The position numbers were made by a program, and so were the translations under genes. The notes beneath the pieces were generated by a model, which was not told where the DNA came from, ran no database searches, and saw only the letters and a program-made list of their open reading frames with translations. 39,216 nucleotides of DNA from Gammaproteobacteria bacterium (GTDB taxonomy: Bacteria; Pseudomonadota; Gammaproteobacteria; UBA6429; Thiohalophilaceae): contig JACQBC010000028.1 of assembly GCA_016194635.1 (NCBI GenBank), positions 1-39,216 of the forward strand. The letters run 5' to 3'. Positions 2,668 through 37,822 of this stretch are shown here, piece after piece (position 1 is the stretch's first letter; each line of letters starts with the position of its first letter).

Positions 2668-2904
2668 ATGCCCAAAGTCAGCTCCAAACGTCAAATCACG
2701 CTCCCGATCGAGCTGTGCGAAATGGCCAATATCAAGCCTGGCGATGAGATCGAGGCGTTTATTTATCAGGGGCAGATCACCATTGTGAAAAAAACCAAAG
2801 GTGCTGCTAAAGGCCTGCTGAGTCATATCAAGGCGGATAAGCGGCTAAGTGATGAAGACTCCCTGCAGAACACCCTGAACGTACGGCACAAAGGTGCGGC
2901 GTGA
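2668..2904 (+). CDS. vapB: AbrB/MazE-type antitoxin (VapB)
   Basis: This 78-residue protein has a swapped-hairpin AbrB domain in its first 45 residues: VSSKRQITLPIELCEMANIKPGDEIEA followed by a strand GQITIVKK. The tail (residues 46-78) probably wraps the toxin. Its last four bases overlap the GTG start of the PIN-domain gene, the usual coupling of vapBC. The start at 2668 gives the proper N-terminus; an ATG four bases earlier is out of frame. It would neutralise VapC and bind the two palindromes immediately upstream. The family is clear; binding to that operator is inferred. Confidence 0.9.
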   Translation: MPKVSSKRQITLPIELCEMANIKPGDEIEAFIYQGQITIVKKTKGAAKGLLSHIKADKRLSDEDSLQNTLNVRHKGAA

Positions 2905-3317
2905 TTGCCATTGATACGAATGTCTTACTTCGCTATTTACTACAAGATGACAGAGACCAATCACCCAAAACCACAAAATTACTCGCGGACCGGGAAAAGG
3001 TGCTGATAACGGACGTAGTGCTGGTGAAGACGGTTTGGACATTGCGAGGTAAGAAATACAAGCTCGCCAAAGCGGATGTGATTACCGTGCTGCATCAGCT
3101 CTTTCAGGAACCTACTATCGTGTTCGAGGATAATCAGTCGGTTTGGAATGCGTTACATGATTACCAGACGGCCGCGACCGGCAACGACGTTGATTTTGCC
3201 GATACCTTAATTCTCGAAAAGGCACAATACGATACGGATATGAAAGCGGAGTCCTTCAACGGACTGTATACATTCGATGTGGATTTGCAGCAGTTAGATC
3301 AAACAAAAAAACCGTAA
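2901..3317 (+). CDS. vapC: PIN-domain ribonuclease toxin (VapC), possibly inactive
   Basis: This 138-residue PIN-domain protein starts with GTG and overlaps vapB by four bases. The N-terminal IDTNVLLRYL carries the first catalytic Asp (D5), and GNDVDFADTLI carries D98 and D101; TFDVDLQQL near the end matches the usual closing motif. In relatives the second strand usually reads VVLVELVWVL, with Glu as the second metal ligand. Here it reads VVLVKTVWTL, so the acidic residue is Lys43 (codon AAG). If this alignment is right the Mg-binding centre is damaged and the RNase may be inactive, though the gene is otherwise full length. VapC toxins cut tRNA or rRNA; the target here is unknown. Confidence 0.88.
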   Translation: MIAIDTNVLLRYLLQDDRDQSPKTTKLLADREKVLITDVVLVKTVWTLRGKKYKLAKADVITVLHQLFQEPTIVFEDNQSVWNALHDYQTAATGNDVDFADTLILEKAQYDTDMKAESFNGLYTFDVDLQQLDQTKKP

Positions 3318-6536: not shown

Positions 6537-7187
6537 CTATTTTATCATGCGTTGGATATCCGCGACATTGCGTATCCACGGCGACCATTTCTTCAAATCC
6601 GCGGGTAATTGTGCCACGGCTAGGTTCGCCTCCGCCACGGTGTCAAAATTTCCATACACCAAGGTGTACCACACCTGCCCCTGTCGACGCGACGGGAAAT
6701 AACCCGCCTTACCACCCAAACTAACATTTTTATAATATTCTAAGACGATGTCTTCATCCGTCGTGCTGACCAGTTGCACGGTGTATTTGCCCTCGCCTAG
6801 GGATTGCACCCAGTGTTTGGGTTCAACGCCGGTGACCGGTGATGCTGAAACAACAGTATTTTTGTTTGCGGTTATACCGGCACTGGGTTGGACACTGTTG
6901 TTATTGAGTTGTTTATAGGCCTCGGTCAATCCTTGCCGCGCCGCCAAGGTTAACCAGTGCTGGGCGGTGGCGACATCCGCCTTGACGCCTTGACCGTGTT
7001 GATACAACATGGCGAGGTTGTATTGCGCCACCGGATCACCCGCGGTCGCCAGTTGTTGCCAGGCCAGCGCGGCGCTGGTGTAATCACCCTTGACCTGTGC
7101 ATCCAAGGCGGTGTGATAGTTTTGTGCCGCGAACAGCGCTTGGCTGATCACGGCTGAAAGTCCGATAACAAGATAGCGTTTACGCAT
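6537..7187 (-). CDS. exported Sel1-repeat and SPOR-domain protein
   Basis: This 216-residue protein has a signal peptide (RKRYLVIGLSAVISQALFA). Residues about 22-95 form two Sel1/TPR-like repeats (AALAWQQLATAGDPVAQYNLAMLYQHGQG and ATAQHWLTLAARQGL). A linker leads to a C-terminal SPOR domain (YTVQLVSTTDEDIVLEYYKN ... VWYTLVYGNFDTVAEANLAVAQL), which binds denuded peptidoglycan at the septum or pole. I chose the ATG at 7187 because GAGGTG sits five bases upstream. It follows the DUF1249 gene by 42 bases, and the pair is preceded by a FliA-type promoter, so a link to flagellum or cell-pole biology is inferred. Domain calls are firm. Confidence 0.85.
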   Translation of the reverse strand: MRKRYLVIGLSAVISQALFAAQNYHTALDAQVKGDYTSAALAWQQLATAGDPVAQYNLAMLYQHGQGVKADVATAQHWLTLAARQGLTEAYKQLNNNSVQPSAGITANKNTVVSASPVTGVEPKHWVQSLGEGKYTVQLVSTTDEDIVLEYYKNVSLGGKAGYFPSRRQGQVWYTLVYGNFDTVAEANLAVAQLPADLKKWSPWIRNVADIQRMIK

Positions 7188-7229
7188 TTCGCACCTCACT
7201 GTTGTGGGGCGAAATGAGTTAACCCCACA

Positions 7230-7670
7230 CTAGTCGCAGATTTGTGATTCGGTTAACAATCGGAAACGCTTCCAATGGTTTAACCAATCGTGCAGGAGTA
7301 AATTCACTTGGCGCTTTTCATCCGTCTGCAGCATTAACGCATTGGGATAACGATAACGCGGTTGAAGATGATGGATTCCCTGATAGGCCACTACCTCGGC
7401 CAGCGCCGCGTCCAAATACACCCGCACTTTGAGCATGAGGTCGGAGACGTAATGCTGCTCGCTCACGAAGCGGTGTTCGATGTTCAACAACAGCGTATAA
7501 CGGGAGCGCTCCAGCACCTGGATACCAATCTGACTGTTGCCCCGCCCGATCCGCACTGATGAAGCAGTTCCTAAATCGAATTCCGTCATCAAGGCCATAA
7601 TCCCAGCAAAATTTTGCTCGAAATACCACATGGGATTATTCAGTCGTAACGTGGCGATGCTCTGTGACAC
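7230..7670 (-). CDS. DUF1249 (YqiB-like) family protein
   Basis: This 146-residue protein matches the DUF1249 family: an aromatic N-terminal segment (WYFEQNFAGIMALM), a central region with IQVLERSRYTLLLNIEH, and the diagnostic C-terminal block PRYRYPNALMLQTDEKRQVNLLLHDWL. The family is widespread in gammaproteobacteria and has no established biochemical role; in Escherichia coli yqiB lies next to nudF and cpdA, which is not the case here. Translation starts at a GTG preceded by GAGGTAGGA. Immediately upstream is a TCAA-N15-GCCGATAA site, so it should be read with the flagellar late genes. There is no signal peptide, so it is cytoplasmic. Function unknown. Confidence 0.85.
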   Translation of the reverse strand: MSQSIATLRLNNPMWYFEQNFAGIMALMTEFDLGTASSVRIGRGNSQIGIQVLERSRYTLLLNIEHRFVSEQHYVSDLMLKVRVYLDAALAEVVAYQGIHHLQPRYRYPNALMLQTDEKRQVNLLLHDWLNHWKRFRLLTESQICD

Positions 7671-7695
7671 GTCCTACCTCATGCGCCTGATGGGG

Positions 7696-7722
7696 TTATC
7701 GGCAGTCGCCGGGGGGGCTTGA
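7696..7722 (-). promoter_or_regulatory. sigma-28 (FliA) promoter for the DUF1249-SPOR pair
   Basis: Read on the minus strand: TCAA (7722-7719), 15 bases, then GCCGATAA (7703-7696), an exact match to the FliA minus-10 consensus with the TCAAG type of minus-35. The inferred start site near 7689 leaves a leader of about 20 bases, just enough for the GAGGTAGGA ribosome-binding site of the GTG-initiated gene. Confidence 0.75.
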
Positions 7723-7773: not shown

Positions 7774-7796
7774 ATGAAAATTGCCACCTTTGTGGC
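7774..7796 (-). terminator. intrinsic terminator of the membrane protein-VWA operon
   Basis: On the minus strand GCCAC-AAAG-GTGGC is followed by AATTTTC, about 40 bases after the stop of the VWA lipoprotein gene. The stem is short (5 bp), so strength is uncertain. Confidence 0.5.
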
Positions 7797-7834: not shown

Positions 7835-8482
7835 TTAATCAAAAATAGGTTCAAGCCGATCTAGATCATTGATGGTTTTCCAGCTACCGCCGGCGGCCTC
7901 GACCTTGCGTTTCCATGCCTCCAAACGGTCCAGGTAGTCCTGGGGATTCACGTTGTCACTGCGTAACTTGGTGATATTGATCGCGATCACATTAAATCCC
8001 GCCAGCTTGAGCGCGATATCGCGGTTATAGCCCTTGTGCAACTCCTCTTTCATATCCGAAAAAATCAGAATGGTCTTTTTGCCCGGTCCGGCTTCGGTAA
8101 GAAACTCGATGCCCTGCAAAATACCGCCGGTGATATCGGTGTACGCGCTGGGTTTGACGTTTTGGGTGAATTCCTGGATTTTCTGTTTGAACAACAAGCG
8201 TTGTTCATTGGCCTTGCTGGGACGCATGTCGAAGGTTTTGCTATAGATAATATTTTTCTCGCTGAAACTACCACTGTCCACACGCTGCACGGCGAAGGTG
8301 TCCCCCGGTTGCAGTTTCGATAAAATATGATTGATGATCTTCACCGAGCCGCCCAATTCCTTCGCGTAGGTGCCGGACGCGTCCAGCAACATATAAATCC
8401 CCTGATCACGGTTCGGATTGTGCTTAGAACAACCCGGCAACAGGGTTGTGGCGAGTACCAACATACCTAAGTAGCGGAACAT
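7835..8482 (-). CDS. von Willebrand factor A-domain lipoprotein
   Basis: This is a 215-residue lipoprotein: signal peptide MFRYLGMLVLATTLLPGC with the lipobox LLPG-C18. The mature part is a single VWA fold. Its MIDAS site is visible as D34-A-S36-G-T38, then YTDITGGI as the threonine loop and ILIFSDMKEE as the final Asp loop. The third MIDAS residue is Thr in place of the usual Ser. VWA domains bind partners through a chelated Mg ion. It lies 16 bases after the gene for a large membrane protein and shares its operon and terminator. I do not recognise a described system; a role in envelope assembly or sensing is only an inference. Confidence 0.8.
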   Translation of the reverse strand: MFRYLGMLVLATTLLPGCSKHNPNRDQGIYMLLDASGTYAKELGGSVKIINHILSKLQPGDTFAVQRVDSGSFSEKNIIYSKTFDMRPSKANEQRLLFKQKIQEFTQNVKPSAYTDITGGILQGIEFLTEAGPGKKTILIFSDMKEELHKGYNRDIALKLAGFNVIAINITKLRSDNVNPQDYLDRLEAWKRKVEAAGGSWKTINDLDRLEPIFD

Positions 8483-8498
8483 AAATTATCCTTAGTTA

Positions 8499-9905
8499 TT
8501 AAATTGTCGAGGTATGATCGCCGGTTTCCAGCTCATCACCGGGTTTAAATAAACTTTCGACCCACAGCGGCAGGAATATAATAAAGTCATACAGATGTAA
8601 CAGCGCCTTACCGGCGAAACGTACCACGTTACCGATGATCCGAAATAACCAGGCCAATGAACGCAAGATCACAATCCCCGCCACCCCCAGGACGGTGCGC
8701 AGGGAATGGATAAACGATTCCAATGGAATCGCCACGAACATCAAGATATAGGGTAATACCCACCCCAAGCCCATTTGGGCCGCGGTGATGATCCAGGTTT
8801 GCTGATTTTTAAACGCGTCGGCGCCGAGCTCGACCGATTTGGTATCGATGATCAACCAATCGCGCATCCAGGCCAACCCCGCCTCCACGCAGGCCAGGGT
8901 GGTTAGAAATACAAACGCGGCCCAGGTAAGCCGCACCCGCATTTTATCATTCAGCGCGCCGATCACCGGGAACAAGCGAGTGACCCGCAGCAGTTCCATC
9001 ACAAAAATACCGACAGCGATTTCCAATAATATGATCACCAAGGCGGCGATACGGTAGGTTTCAATACCCATGATCTCGGTTTTCTGTTGCACCATTTCCG
9101 ACATCGGCAACGCAATCAACTCAAAGTTAATCACCGCACCGCCGCCCGCCACCGACAATACAAACAGCGCGATAAAAAACTGGGTTAACGATGACGACGA
9201 CAACATGCGTTCGGCGCGCGAGGTCTTGCGCACGGTATTTTCATACTCGTCCATATACCGATCGATGGTCTGGGCGCGTGACAATAAACTCTTGGCGTTT
9301 TTATCCACCTGTTCCAATACTTGTTGCACCTTGCGCCAACGCGGTAGCATCTTTTTTAAATGCTCATGACGGCTGTGACTGGCCTTGCGGTACTCGACAA
9401 TCGCGGTATTGTTGGCCTTGATCATCGATTCGTGGATATCCTCCAAGATATTGACCACCATCGGATCCTTGCCGGGAAGTTTGGCCACCGCGTCAACGGC
9501 CTTGTACCAAGCCGGGGGCTCCGGCGGCACATCGGCGCTTTGTTTGTAATCCTCTTCAAGTTGAGTGATATCCTCACTCAAGTGACGGTGCAAGCCTGGA
9601 TACGCGGACATATCGCGCCGTACCGAGGCGTCGATCCGATCAAATTCGCGTTCGATGATCCGCTCCGATGCCTCGCGTCCCTGGGCGAGCAACACCTCGC
9701 GGTTGCGTTCCATCAACCAGCGCTCGCCGCGTAACATCCCGCGCGCGGATAAACGCAGCCCATTGTGTAACGTCCGGCTCAGCGCCGTGATCACCGCACG
9801 GGCAGGCGTACGCGCAAAATAAAGAATCACCACCAACATCACTAACCAAATAAAACCTGATACATAGGGGTTAGAAACTATCAAGAACGCGTCAGCCCAA
9901 AGCAT
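8499..9905 (-). CDS. large polytopic membrane protein, partner of the VWA lipoprotein
   Basis: This is a 468-residue protein I cannot assign to a named family. It has an N-terminal membrane anchor (IWLVMLVVILYFA, residues about 18-32) and a long charged, mostly helical soluble region (about 40-240) with coiled-coil character (FDRIDASVRRDM, VQQVLEQVDKNAKSLLSRAQTIDRYMDEYENTV). It ends in a block of about six hydrophobic segments (about 245-455), including FFIALFVLSVAGGGAVINF, ALVIILLEIAVGIFVMEL and WAAFVFLTTLACVEAGLAWM. The ribosome-binding site AAGGAGAGG precedes the ATG. It is the first gene of an operon with the VWA lipoprotein. The architecture recalls large envelope complexes in which a membrane stator is paired with a MIDAS protein, but this is speculation. 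Confidence 0.75.
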   Translation of the reverse strand: MLWADAFLIVSNPYVSGFIWLVMLVVILYFARTPARAVITALSRTLHNGLRLSARGMLRGERWLMERNREVLLAQGREASERIIEREFDRIDASVRRDMSAYPGLHRHLSEDITQLEEDYKQSADVPPEPPAWYKAVDAVAKLPGKDPMVVNILEDIHESMIKANNTAIVEYRKASHSRHEHLKKMLPRWRKVQQVLEQVDKNAKSLLSRAQTIDRYMDEYENTVRKTSRAERMLSSSSLTQFFIALFVLSVAGGGAVINFELIALPMSEMVQQKTEIMGIETYRIAALVIILLEIAVGIFVMELLRVTRLFPVIGALNDKMRVRLTWAAFVFLTTLACVEAGLAWMRDWLIIDTKSVELGADAFKNQQTWIITAAQMGLGWVLPYILMFVAIPLESFIHSLRTVLGVAGIVILRSLAWLFRIIGNVVRFAGKALLHLYDFIIFLPLWVESLFKPGDELETGDHTSTI

Positions 9906-10080: not shown

Positions 10081-10830
10081 TTAGGCCGCCGAGGATGCCG
10101 ATTGGATGAATTCCTGCAGCAAGCCACGCATCCGCAGATGGGCTTGGCTGAGTAACTGGCTCACGCGGGATTCGCTAACCCCTAATACACCGCCAATTTC
10201 CTTGAGATTGAGTTCTTCGTCGTAATACAAGCTGACAATTAATTGCTCGCGTTCGGGGAGTTGTTTGATCGCTGCGGTGAGATGACGACGAAATTCATCG
10301 CGTTCAATTCCACGCAAGGGCCCATGGTCACGTTCATCGGCAATCGACTCGCCCAGATTCTCATCGTCGGATTCCACTTCGGCAAAGTTCAGCACCCGGC
10401 AGGTGTTGGTCTGCAACACTAATTGATGATACTCGTCCAGCGATAGGTCCATGGCCGCGGCGATTTCGTGGGGTTTGGCCTCGCGGCCGGTACCAGACTC
10501 GATCTGCCGCATGGCATCCACCATGTCACGGGCACGGCGGTGTACGGACTTGGGCGCCCAATCATTGCGTCGCAACTCATCCAACATCGCGCCACGCACA
10601 CGAATCGCGGCATAGGTTTCAAAGCTCGCGCCTTGGGAAGGATCATAATGGCCGGCGGCGTTGAGCAGCCCCATTAACCCGGCCTGGATCAAATCATCCA
10701 CCTGCACACTGGGCGGCAGTCGTGCCATTAAATGGTAAGCAATGCGCTGTACCAAGGGAGCATGTCGCTCCAGCAGGGTGTTCAAATCCGCGTGTTGCGC
10801 GGCGCTATAGGACTGAGGTTTGGTCGACAT
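10081..10830 (-). CDS. fliA: flagellar RNA polymerase sigma factor sigma-28
   Basis: This 249-residue protein has the four sigma regions of FliA: region 2 (HAPLVQRIAYHLMARLPPSVQVDDLIQAGLMGLL and FETYAAIRVRGAMLDELRRNDW), region 3 (around AREKPHEIAAAMDLSLDEYHQ) and region 4 with the helix-turn-helix LNLKEIGGVLGVSESRVSQLLSQAHLRMR. Length and motifs match FliA closely. It directs late flagellar and chemotaxis genes and is normally held by FlgM, which is not in this window. Its own promoter appears to be of the sigma-54 type (10866-10881), which places it under FleQ or FleR control. It lies divergently from the chemotaxis operon, which has a FliA-type promoter, and away from the usual flhF-fleN neighbours. 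Confidence 0.97.
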   Translation of the reverse strand: MSTKPQSYSAAQHADLNTLLERHAPLVQRIAYHLMARLPPSVQVDDLIQAGLMGLLNAAGHYDPSQGASFETYAAIRVRGAMLDELRRNDWAPKSVHRRARDMVDAMRQIESGTGREAKPHEIAAAMDLSLDEYHQLVLQTNTCRVLNFAEVESDDENLGESIADERDHGPLRGIERDEFRRHLTAAIKQLPEREQLIVSLYYDEELNLKEIGGVLGVSESRVSQLLSQAHLRMRGLLQEFIQSASSAA

Positions 10831-11026: not shown

Positions 11027-11053
11027 TAAAGGAAATATACACGGAGACGATAA
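11027..11053 (+). promoter_or_regulatory. sigma-28 (FliA) promoter of the chemotaxis operon
   Basis: TAAA (11027-11030), 15 bases, then GACGATAA (11046-11053), seven of eight positions of the GCCGATAA consensus with the optimal spacer. The leader to the STAS gene would be about 105 bases. Confidence 0.7.
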
Positions 11054-37795: not shown

Positions 37796-37822
37796 GTAGC
37801 GTCCGCCGGTAGGGGCACTTGA
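37796..37822 (-). promoter_or_regulatory. candidate sigma-28 promoter of fliC
   Basis: On the minus strand TCAA (37822-37819), 15 bases, then GACGCTAC (37803-37796), five of eight bases of GCCGATAA. The minus-35 matches the perfect site at 7696-7722, but the minus-10 is weak. Confidence 0.35.

Follow-up and report, generated by a model that had tools for sequence, protein, structure and literature searches.

DUF1249 and the Sel1-SPOR gene behind it would form a two-gene unit transcribed from a single sigma-28 promoter, which is likely read by FliA1 as part of a pilus and c-di-GMP regulon rather than the late flagellar regulon, a reading to which we assign a probability of about 0.56. The pair lies in a 39,216-nt stretch of gammaproteobacterial DNA, called the window throughout. 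In the mechanism we propose, the promoter would be read by FliA1, which is encoded with flhF-flhG, rather than by the adjacent paralog FliA2. The FliA1 regulon would comprise GGDEF/EAL c-di-GMP enzymes, an MSHA-type pilus operon, CheX, an M23 peptidase and an HDOD protein, and could persist after loss of the flagellum; FliA2, its -10 preference altered, would serve flagellin and flgM.

More tentatively, we propose a wider history for the Thiohalophilus-containing gammaproteobacterial family. A duplication of sigma-28 may have split the regulon, with FliA2 (C at position 5, R91K) taking flagellin and flgM, and FliA1 keeping the ancestral GCCGAYA sites and controlling c-di-GMP enzymes, MSHA-type pili, CheX and DUF1249 as a programme independent of the flagellum. 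On excision of the flagellar cluster, a lineage would then have lost FliA2 and its sites and kept FliA1 with at least part of its regulon; two complete genomes are also without FlgM, which would free FliA1 from the flagellar checkpoint.

The gene pair and its promoter site

The features of the locus and the related sites within the window are collected in Table 1.

Table 1. Features of the DUF1249 locus and other sigma-28-type sites, in coordinates of the window.
Feature	Coordinates	Strand	Basis or remark
Sigma-28 (FliA-type) promoter, TCAAG-N14-GCCGATAA, position-5 A class	7696-7722	-	Sequence and family conservation
DUF1249 gene (E. coli YqiB family), GTG start	7230-7670	-	PF06853, E 7.4e-27; sole copy in the genome
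Predicted exported Sel1-SPOR protein: hydrophobic signal-like N terminus, one Sel1 repeat, DamX-type SPOR domain	6537-7187	-	Pfam; profile match to 2lfv
Terminator-like hairpin, GCCAC-AAAG-GTGGC followed by AATTTT, between VWA-like gene and promoter	7783-7796	-	Weak
VWA-like lipoprotein gene	7835-8482	-	Label from motif resemblance; no Pfam match; order family-wide
MP468, 468-aa membrane and coiled-coil protein	8499-9905	-	ORF; Pfam search
FliA2, second sigma-28 paralog	10081-10830	-	TIGR02479 / PRK06986; clade apart from FliA1
Sigma-28-type site, TAAAG-N14-GACGATAA, A at position 5, A at position 2	11027-11053	+	Before the STAS-CheY-CheA operon
Flagellin promoter-like site, TCAAG-N14-GACGCTAC, position-5 C class	37796-37822	-	Pattern scan

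The site upstream of DUF1249 (TCAAGCCCCCCCGGCGACTGCCGATAA, read from 7722 to 7696 on the minus strand) had been described, in a reading made from the sequence only, as a perfect FliA promoter followed after about 20 bases by the GTG of the gene. Measured against the E. coli sigma-28 consensus in the accessible text of PMC2859248, TAAAGTTT-n11-GCCGATAA or TAAA-N15-GCCGATAA, its -10 octamer is perfect and its -35 carries one mismatch, C for A, so that 'perfect' is a correct description of the -10 and of the TCAA variant, though not of the E. coli -35. The gene does follow, with its GTG at 7670 and a measured gap from the -10 of 25 bases, and the Sel1-SPOR gene starts 42 bases past the DUF1249 stop. 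The identities proposed for the two genes are borne out by Pfam: the DUF1249 product scores 94.1 bits against PF06853, over the curated cut-off of 25, and the downstream product contains a Sel1 match (E 2.9e-10) and a SPOR match (PF05036, E 5.6e-9, 36.6 bits, over the curated cut-off of 21).

A hairpin scan found one hairpin, between the VWA-like gene and the promoter, against a mean of 2.3 in shuffles. Read-through from the VWA-like gene was considered and set aside on the ground that this weak terminator-like hairpin intervenes, another hairpin with a T run following the VWA-like gene at a relative's locus (L065); neither amounts to proof.

Taken in one genome alone, the site is not clearly beyond chance. 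Four sigma-28 matches with one mismatch occur in the window, the pattern TMAA-N14-16-GCCGATA occurs 42 times in the genome from which the window comes (G000) against 18 times when reversed, and about 40% of bare pattern matches in that genome are expected by chance. Because chance could not be rejected from the window itself, conservation across the family was used as the test.

Conservation of the site upstream of DUF1249

The comparison set consisted of the window genome and 57 relatives, 36 of them from the same family, giving 37 family genomes, of which we counted 31 as flagellated and six as flagellum-less. DUF1249 is present in 31 of the 37, and we examined every one of these loci. As far as the contigs extend, their common order is fliA2, MP468, the VWA-like lipoprotein gene, DUF1249 and, usually, the Sel1-SPOR gene. 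Scored with the pattern T[ACT]AAG-N13-15-GCCGA[CT]A, whose 12 scored positions were relaxed and chosen after a first look at the loci, the region upstream of DUF1249 reaches at least 11 of 12 positions in 26 of the 31 loci and all 12 in 21, compared with 0.6% and 0 of 3100, respectively, in shuffled sequences. The opposite strand reaches 10 of 12 at most, as do the control regions upstream of MP468 (28), the VWA-like gene (29) and the SPOR gene (27), while upstream of fliA2 a score of 11 of 12 is reached in 3 of 20 regions. Under the strict E. coli consensus, a score of at least 11 of 13 is reached by 19 of the 31 loci, against 0.7% of 6200 shuffles and one of 31 loci on the other strand. The GCCGACA variant admitted by the relaxed pattern also occurs among variants of the E. 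coli aer promoter, according to the accessible text of PMC2859248. Conservation across relatives is far beyond chance.

Five family loci fall below 11 of 12. The flagellum-less G005 and G010 and the flagellated G033 are without the site, and the flagellated G022 and G028 reach only 10 of 12. The sequence-only reading had named absence of the site from relatives that keep the gene pair as evidence that would count against it; this check is largely passed, the site being kept in most of them, with these exceptions. Outside the family, 13 genomes have DUF1249; 10 of their loci were fetched, none with the neighbours seen in the family. Of these ten, L098 gave no match, and in the other nine no sigma-28 site was found before DUF1249, the best score with the strict consensus being 10 of 13.

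A second set, overlapping the first, was built from relatives of MP468, 80 of 107 loci being kept. DUF1249 lies in 28 of these 80, many of which are short, and 20 of the 28 score at least 11 of 12. Among the loci new in this set, L292 is a full match and L304-L306, under cruder anchoring, score 8 of 12 and are without the site. The records from which the MP468 loci L267-L346 were drawn carry the labels Gamma-, Alpha- and Deltaproteobacteria, Campylobacterales and Mariprofundaceae.

Two promoter classes and two sigma-28 paralogs

Leaving -10 positions 2, 5 and 6 free and counting only readable sites, we could read 22 of 31 DUF1249 loci, 25 of 29 flagellin loci, 9 of 10 flgM loci and 11 of 19 loci of the pilus ATPase gene that we call mshE, with 9, 4, 1 and 8 unreadable, respectively. 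Position 5 of the -10 is A in all 22 DUF1249 sites and in 10 of the 11 mshE sites (32 of 33 together; the mshE site of G001 has C), and it is C in all 25 flagellin (fliC) and all nine flgM sites (34 of 34), a split whose significance Fisher values overstate, the family members not being independent. The E. coli fliC site, TAAAG...GACGATAA, has A at this position, so C would be the derived state if that of E. coli is ancestral. Placement in the late flagellar regulon, as the sequence-only reading had it, is not supported: the promoter type differs between DUF1249 and the readable flagellin or flgM sites, and the DUF1249 site survives in some flagellum-less relatives.

Within the window, the pattern T[ACT]AAG-N13-15-G[AC]CG[AC][TC]A finds three sites, those before DUF1249 (A), the STAS-CheY-CheA operon (A) and flagellin (C). 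The second of these, at 11027-11053, resembles the E. coli fliC site, is of mixed class, and stands before a second chemotaxis operon, divergent from fliA2. Genome-wide, the A class (TMAAG-N13-15-GCCGAYA) is found 85 times against 21 reversed in the six flagellum-less genomes and 17 times against 8 in G000, while the GACGCTA class is found 4 times against 17 reversed in the six and 102 against 57 in the other 31, with 22 of those 102 being flagellin promoters by position. The C class seems to be small. A GCCGCTA form recurs before flgM; as a genome-wide class it was rejected, since it is not enriched over its reverse either in the six flagellum-less genomes (16 against 36) or in the other 31 (150 against 186). 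All nine flagellated flgM loci that were read have the C-class site, and none of three flagellum-less ones has it.

Two FliA/WhiG-class proteins over the cut-off are found in 24 of the 31 flagellated genomes, the other seven having one or fragments, and each of the six flagellum-less genomes has exactly one FliA over the cut-off, always of the FliA1 type, with no FliA2 found over it in any of the six. FliA1 of the window genome lies on another contig (C13:276156-276812), with flhA-flhF-flhG and a cheY-cheZ-cheA-cheB set; FliA2 is the paralog beside the DUF1249 locus. The 41 aligned FliA sequences, the partial L086 being left out, fall into two clades that match synteny, 19 FliA1 and 22 FliA2. 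At E. coli position 91, which we take to be a contact to the -10, all 19 FliA1 have R and all 22 FliA2 have K, and D81 and R84 are identical in all 41. If the classes are real, one -10 base and one sigma residue might keep two sigma-28 paralogs apart.

Relatives without flagella

The genomes G002, G005, G009, G010, G019 and G024 have no flagellin and no FlhA match, and all retain FliA1; their completeness is 100% for G002 and G019, 93% for G024, 86% for G010, 71% for G005 and 70% for G009. G002 is Thiohalophilus thiocyanatoxydans DSM 16326, flagellum-less by gene content only, and has GCCGACAG as the -10 before DUF1249. We counted as flagellated both G025, which has FlhA and FliA2 and no flagellin match, and G023, G027, G028 and G033, which have flagellin and no FlhA. 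DUF1249 is kept in five of the six flagellum-less genomes (it was not found in G009), its site in three of those five (G002, G019 and G024, being absent from G005 and G010), and the SPOR gene in one of the five. No FlgM match was found in G002, G009 and G019, nor in G025 and G030, and the FlgM of G024 is short; G002 and G019 therefore carry the DUF1249 site without FlgM, and G024 carries it with the short FlgM.

Gene distances suggest how the flagellum was lost in three of these genomes. Eight flagellated genomes have flgM and DUF1249 on one contig, 35-53 kb apart with flagellin between them, and in G005, G010 and G024 the two are 3.0-4.2 kb apart. We infer that the flagellar cluster was cut out between flgM and MP468 while MP468, the VWA-like gene and DUF1249 stayed. 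Both borders of the apparent excision are in place at G005:C200, G010:C187 and G024:C118 (L065, L069 and L082).

The leading alternative, which we regard as unlikely, places the pair among the normal late flagellar (class III/IV) units: after hook completion the pair would be transcribed with whichever FliA is then active, and it would act in placement or anchoring of the flagellum. This alternative would account for the position of the pair at the edge of the flagellar cluster, with fliA2 nearby in most family loci, and it agrees with the accessible text of PMC2859248, where the E. coli flagellar consensus is itself GCCGATAA. It draws further strength from the SPOR gene, which lies behind DUF1249 at all 26 flagellated loci, including G004 and G034 in fragments, against 1 of 5 flagellum-less ones, the absences representing only three genera (Fisher 1.6e-4, a value overstated by the non-independence of family members). 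Yet in this family the flagellin and flgM promoters that could be read belong to the other class, and DUF1249 stays in five of the six flagellum-less genomes, in three of those five with its site, and was left in place by the apparent excision of the cluster. Given the other promoter class and this partial survival without a flagellum, a late flagellar assignment of the unit is unsupported.

Our preferred reading, in which FliA1 reads the promoter, also has evidence against it. Two of the five flagellum-less genomes with DUF1249 are those without the site, the pilus ATPase is found in only two of the six flagellum-less genomes, and 8 of 19 of its upstream regions are unreadable. In a flagellated genome, either paralog could recognise either class of site. 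The SPOR pattern, moreover, points to a flagellar link that reading by FliA1 does not itself explain.

Other genes behind A-class sites

In G000, nine of 17 A-class sites lie within 65 bases before a gene, and the genes are DUF1249, the pilus ATPase, CheX, an HDOD protein, two GGDEF proteins, an M23 peptidase (whose site falls inside a 71-aa ORF that we took as spurious), a thiamine-diphosphate enzyme and a Crp-like regulator. In G019, seven of 17 lie within about 100 bases of a gene, namely DUF1249, an ankyrin protein, the pilus ATPase, a rhodanese and three GGDEF proteins, and G002, of the same genus, shares the sites at DUF1249, the ankyrin, pilus ATPase and rhodanese genes and two GGDEF genes. 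Across G000 and G019 the genes close behind the other A-class sites are mostly of pilus, c-di-GMP, CheX, M23 and HDOD functions, and no flagellar gene was found close behind one in these two genomes. The remaining A-class sites, within genes or distant from any, may be chance matches; one of them, in G019, stands 284 bases ahead of the gene for ribosomal protein S8 (L179). The family-wide site test covered DUF1249 and the pilus ATPase.

The pilus ATPase scores 555 bits as PilB and 551 bits as GspE, each just under the equivalog cut-off. It is followed by a GspF-type protein (T2SSF, 192 bits in G000 and 207 in G019) and then by type IV prepilins, which in G000 show one methylation motif at 36.9 bits and another, at 19.6, under its cut-off; this order is that of a pilus operon, and the names MSHA and MshE, which we presume for the operon and its ATPase, come from sequence resemblance. 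At E <= 1e-120, a search of 31 family genomes found the ATPase in 19, with G002 and G019 the only flagellum-less ones. An A-class site precedes the first gene of the MSHA-type operon in flagellated genomes and in these two flagellum-less members of one genus. The strict form stands before the ATPase in G000, G002, G019 and G021, among others, and several loci have a GTCGATAA-like form or no readable site.

Further sigma-28-like sites were seen in passing. In three flagellum-less genomes one stands before a gene, downstream of DUF1249, that has ankyrin repeats and a cysteine-rich start (L077 at 7839-7940, L063 around 8071 and L069 at 6782-6904). In three genomes TAAAG-N15-GCCGATA precedes an RpoS-like sigma factor gene, about 480 bases ahead of the part that was matched (L199 at 1126-1153, G024:C5:16883 and G025:C106:3645), that of G000 falling inside the preceding reading frame. 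Near the M23 peptidase gene of G000, an A-class and a GACGCTA-class site on one strand are separated by about 1.7 kb (G000:C31:196182 and 197920).

The SPOR and DUF1249 proteins

DamX of E. coli is a SPOR protein at the division septum. The C-terminal domain of the Sel1-SPOR protein is of the DamX type, matching the profile of the DamX SPOR structure 2lfv at E 1.9e-18, and the whole protein scores 40.2 bits against the DamX equivalog NF008153, for which the cut-off is 256. It differs from DamX in that a signal-like N terminus, which we read by eye, and one Sel1 repeat replace the long N-terminal part, and in the sigma-28 site ahead of its unit. By analogy with DamX, the protein would reach the periplasm and bind denuded glycan at the septum or new pole, where the Sel1 repeat might dock a partner. 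No full-length Sel1-SPOR match was found elsewhere in G002, G005, G019 and G024; given its presence at all 26 flagellated loci and at one of the five flagellum-less ones, the SPOR partner, unlike DUF1249, tracks the flagellum. A flagellum- or pole-linked role is plausible for it, and it probably acts at the pole or septum of flagellated cells.

DUF1249 would be a cytoplasmic companion of the SPOR protein, kept also where the latter was lost. Its AlphaFold2 model (mean pLDDT 80.1) has two N-terminal helices, five strands and one long helix. Foldseek gave no match to the PDB with E up to 0.001, and the best match of the DUF1249 profile to PDB sequences had an E of only 0.56. With VIA-align the best hit is an uncharacterised protein at Z 5.6, p32-like chains lying close by, from which we draw no function.

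Comparison with known systems

Like E. coli YqiB, the DUF1249 protein described here belongs to PF06853 and is encoded by a single-copy gene. The surroundings differ: the E. coli order is nudF-yqiB-cpdA-yqiA-parE, and here DUF1249 lies beside the MP468 and VWA-like pair and the flagellar cluster, and, unlike yqiB, behind a sigma-28 site in 26 of 31 family loci. Our search of an open-access library found no paper that mentions 'DUF1249' and none joining 'YqiB' and 'nudF'. The regulon proposed here would make this uncharacterised family a candidate member of a defined regulon.

This comparison also bears on a second alternative, which we judge improbable, namely that the site is active and the pair is nonetheless a constitutive housekeeping unit that moved beside the flagellar cluster, where sigma-28 only supplements an unseen sigma-70 promoter. 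In its favour, all 44 genomes with any DUF1249 match have exactly one, three of the 10 outgroup loci have nudF or cpdA nearby, as in E. coli, and two flagellum-less genomes manage without the site. Against this, a crude scan found no sigma-70-like match on the same strand between the VWA-like gene and DUF1249, the one match it returned lying inside the VWA-like gene at 8280-8252, and the sigma-28 site has long been conserved. That the site is a chance match or a non-functional conserved sequence is very improbable: matches of such quality are common in one genome, but this one is conserved in 26 loci, with no shuffle matching it fully, while 21 DUF1249 proteins (20 from the family, one from the outgroup) are only 32-59% identical to that of the window.

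Returning to the proposed FliA1 regulon, parts of it have counterparts elsewhere. As described in the accessible parts of the respective sources, FliA is retained in the flagellum-less Legionella oakridgensis (PMC5655016), bifA of Pseudomonas putida is FliA-dependent (PMC5300878), and in Vibrio cholerae the flagellar state, MSHA and c-di-GMP are linked, with no FliA control of mshE shown there (PMC7098655). The family resembles the Legionella and P. putida cases, FliA regulons with non-flagellar members, in having FliA without a flagellum and GGDEF/EAL genes behind FliA-type sites. It differs from them in having two paralogs in most flagellated members, in the different -10 base of flagellin and flgM, and in the kept-class sites that precede the MSHA-type pilus operon and DUF1249.

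A second flagellar sigma factor is also found in bacteria with two flagellar systems, LafS of Vibrio being an example. Here, as there, a cell has two FliA-class sigma factors, and here, unlike there, the other paralog is kept in genomes without flagellin or FlhA. The flagellum-less lineages offer a natural experiment, repeated in several genera, on the role of sigma-28 once the flagellum is gone.

Apart from this locus, the left end of the window appears to contain an Rhs tail and toxin-antitoxin-like genes (ParE-like, HTH and PIN-like, by resemblance) at 253-735, 1276-1599, 1799-2233 and 2901-3317.
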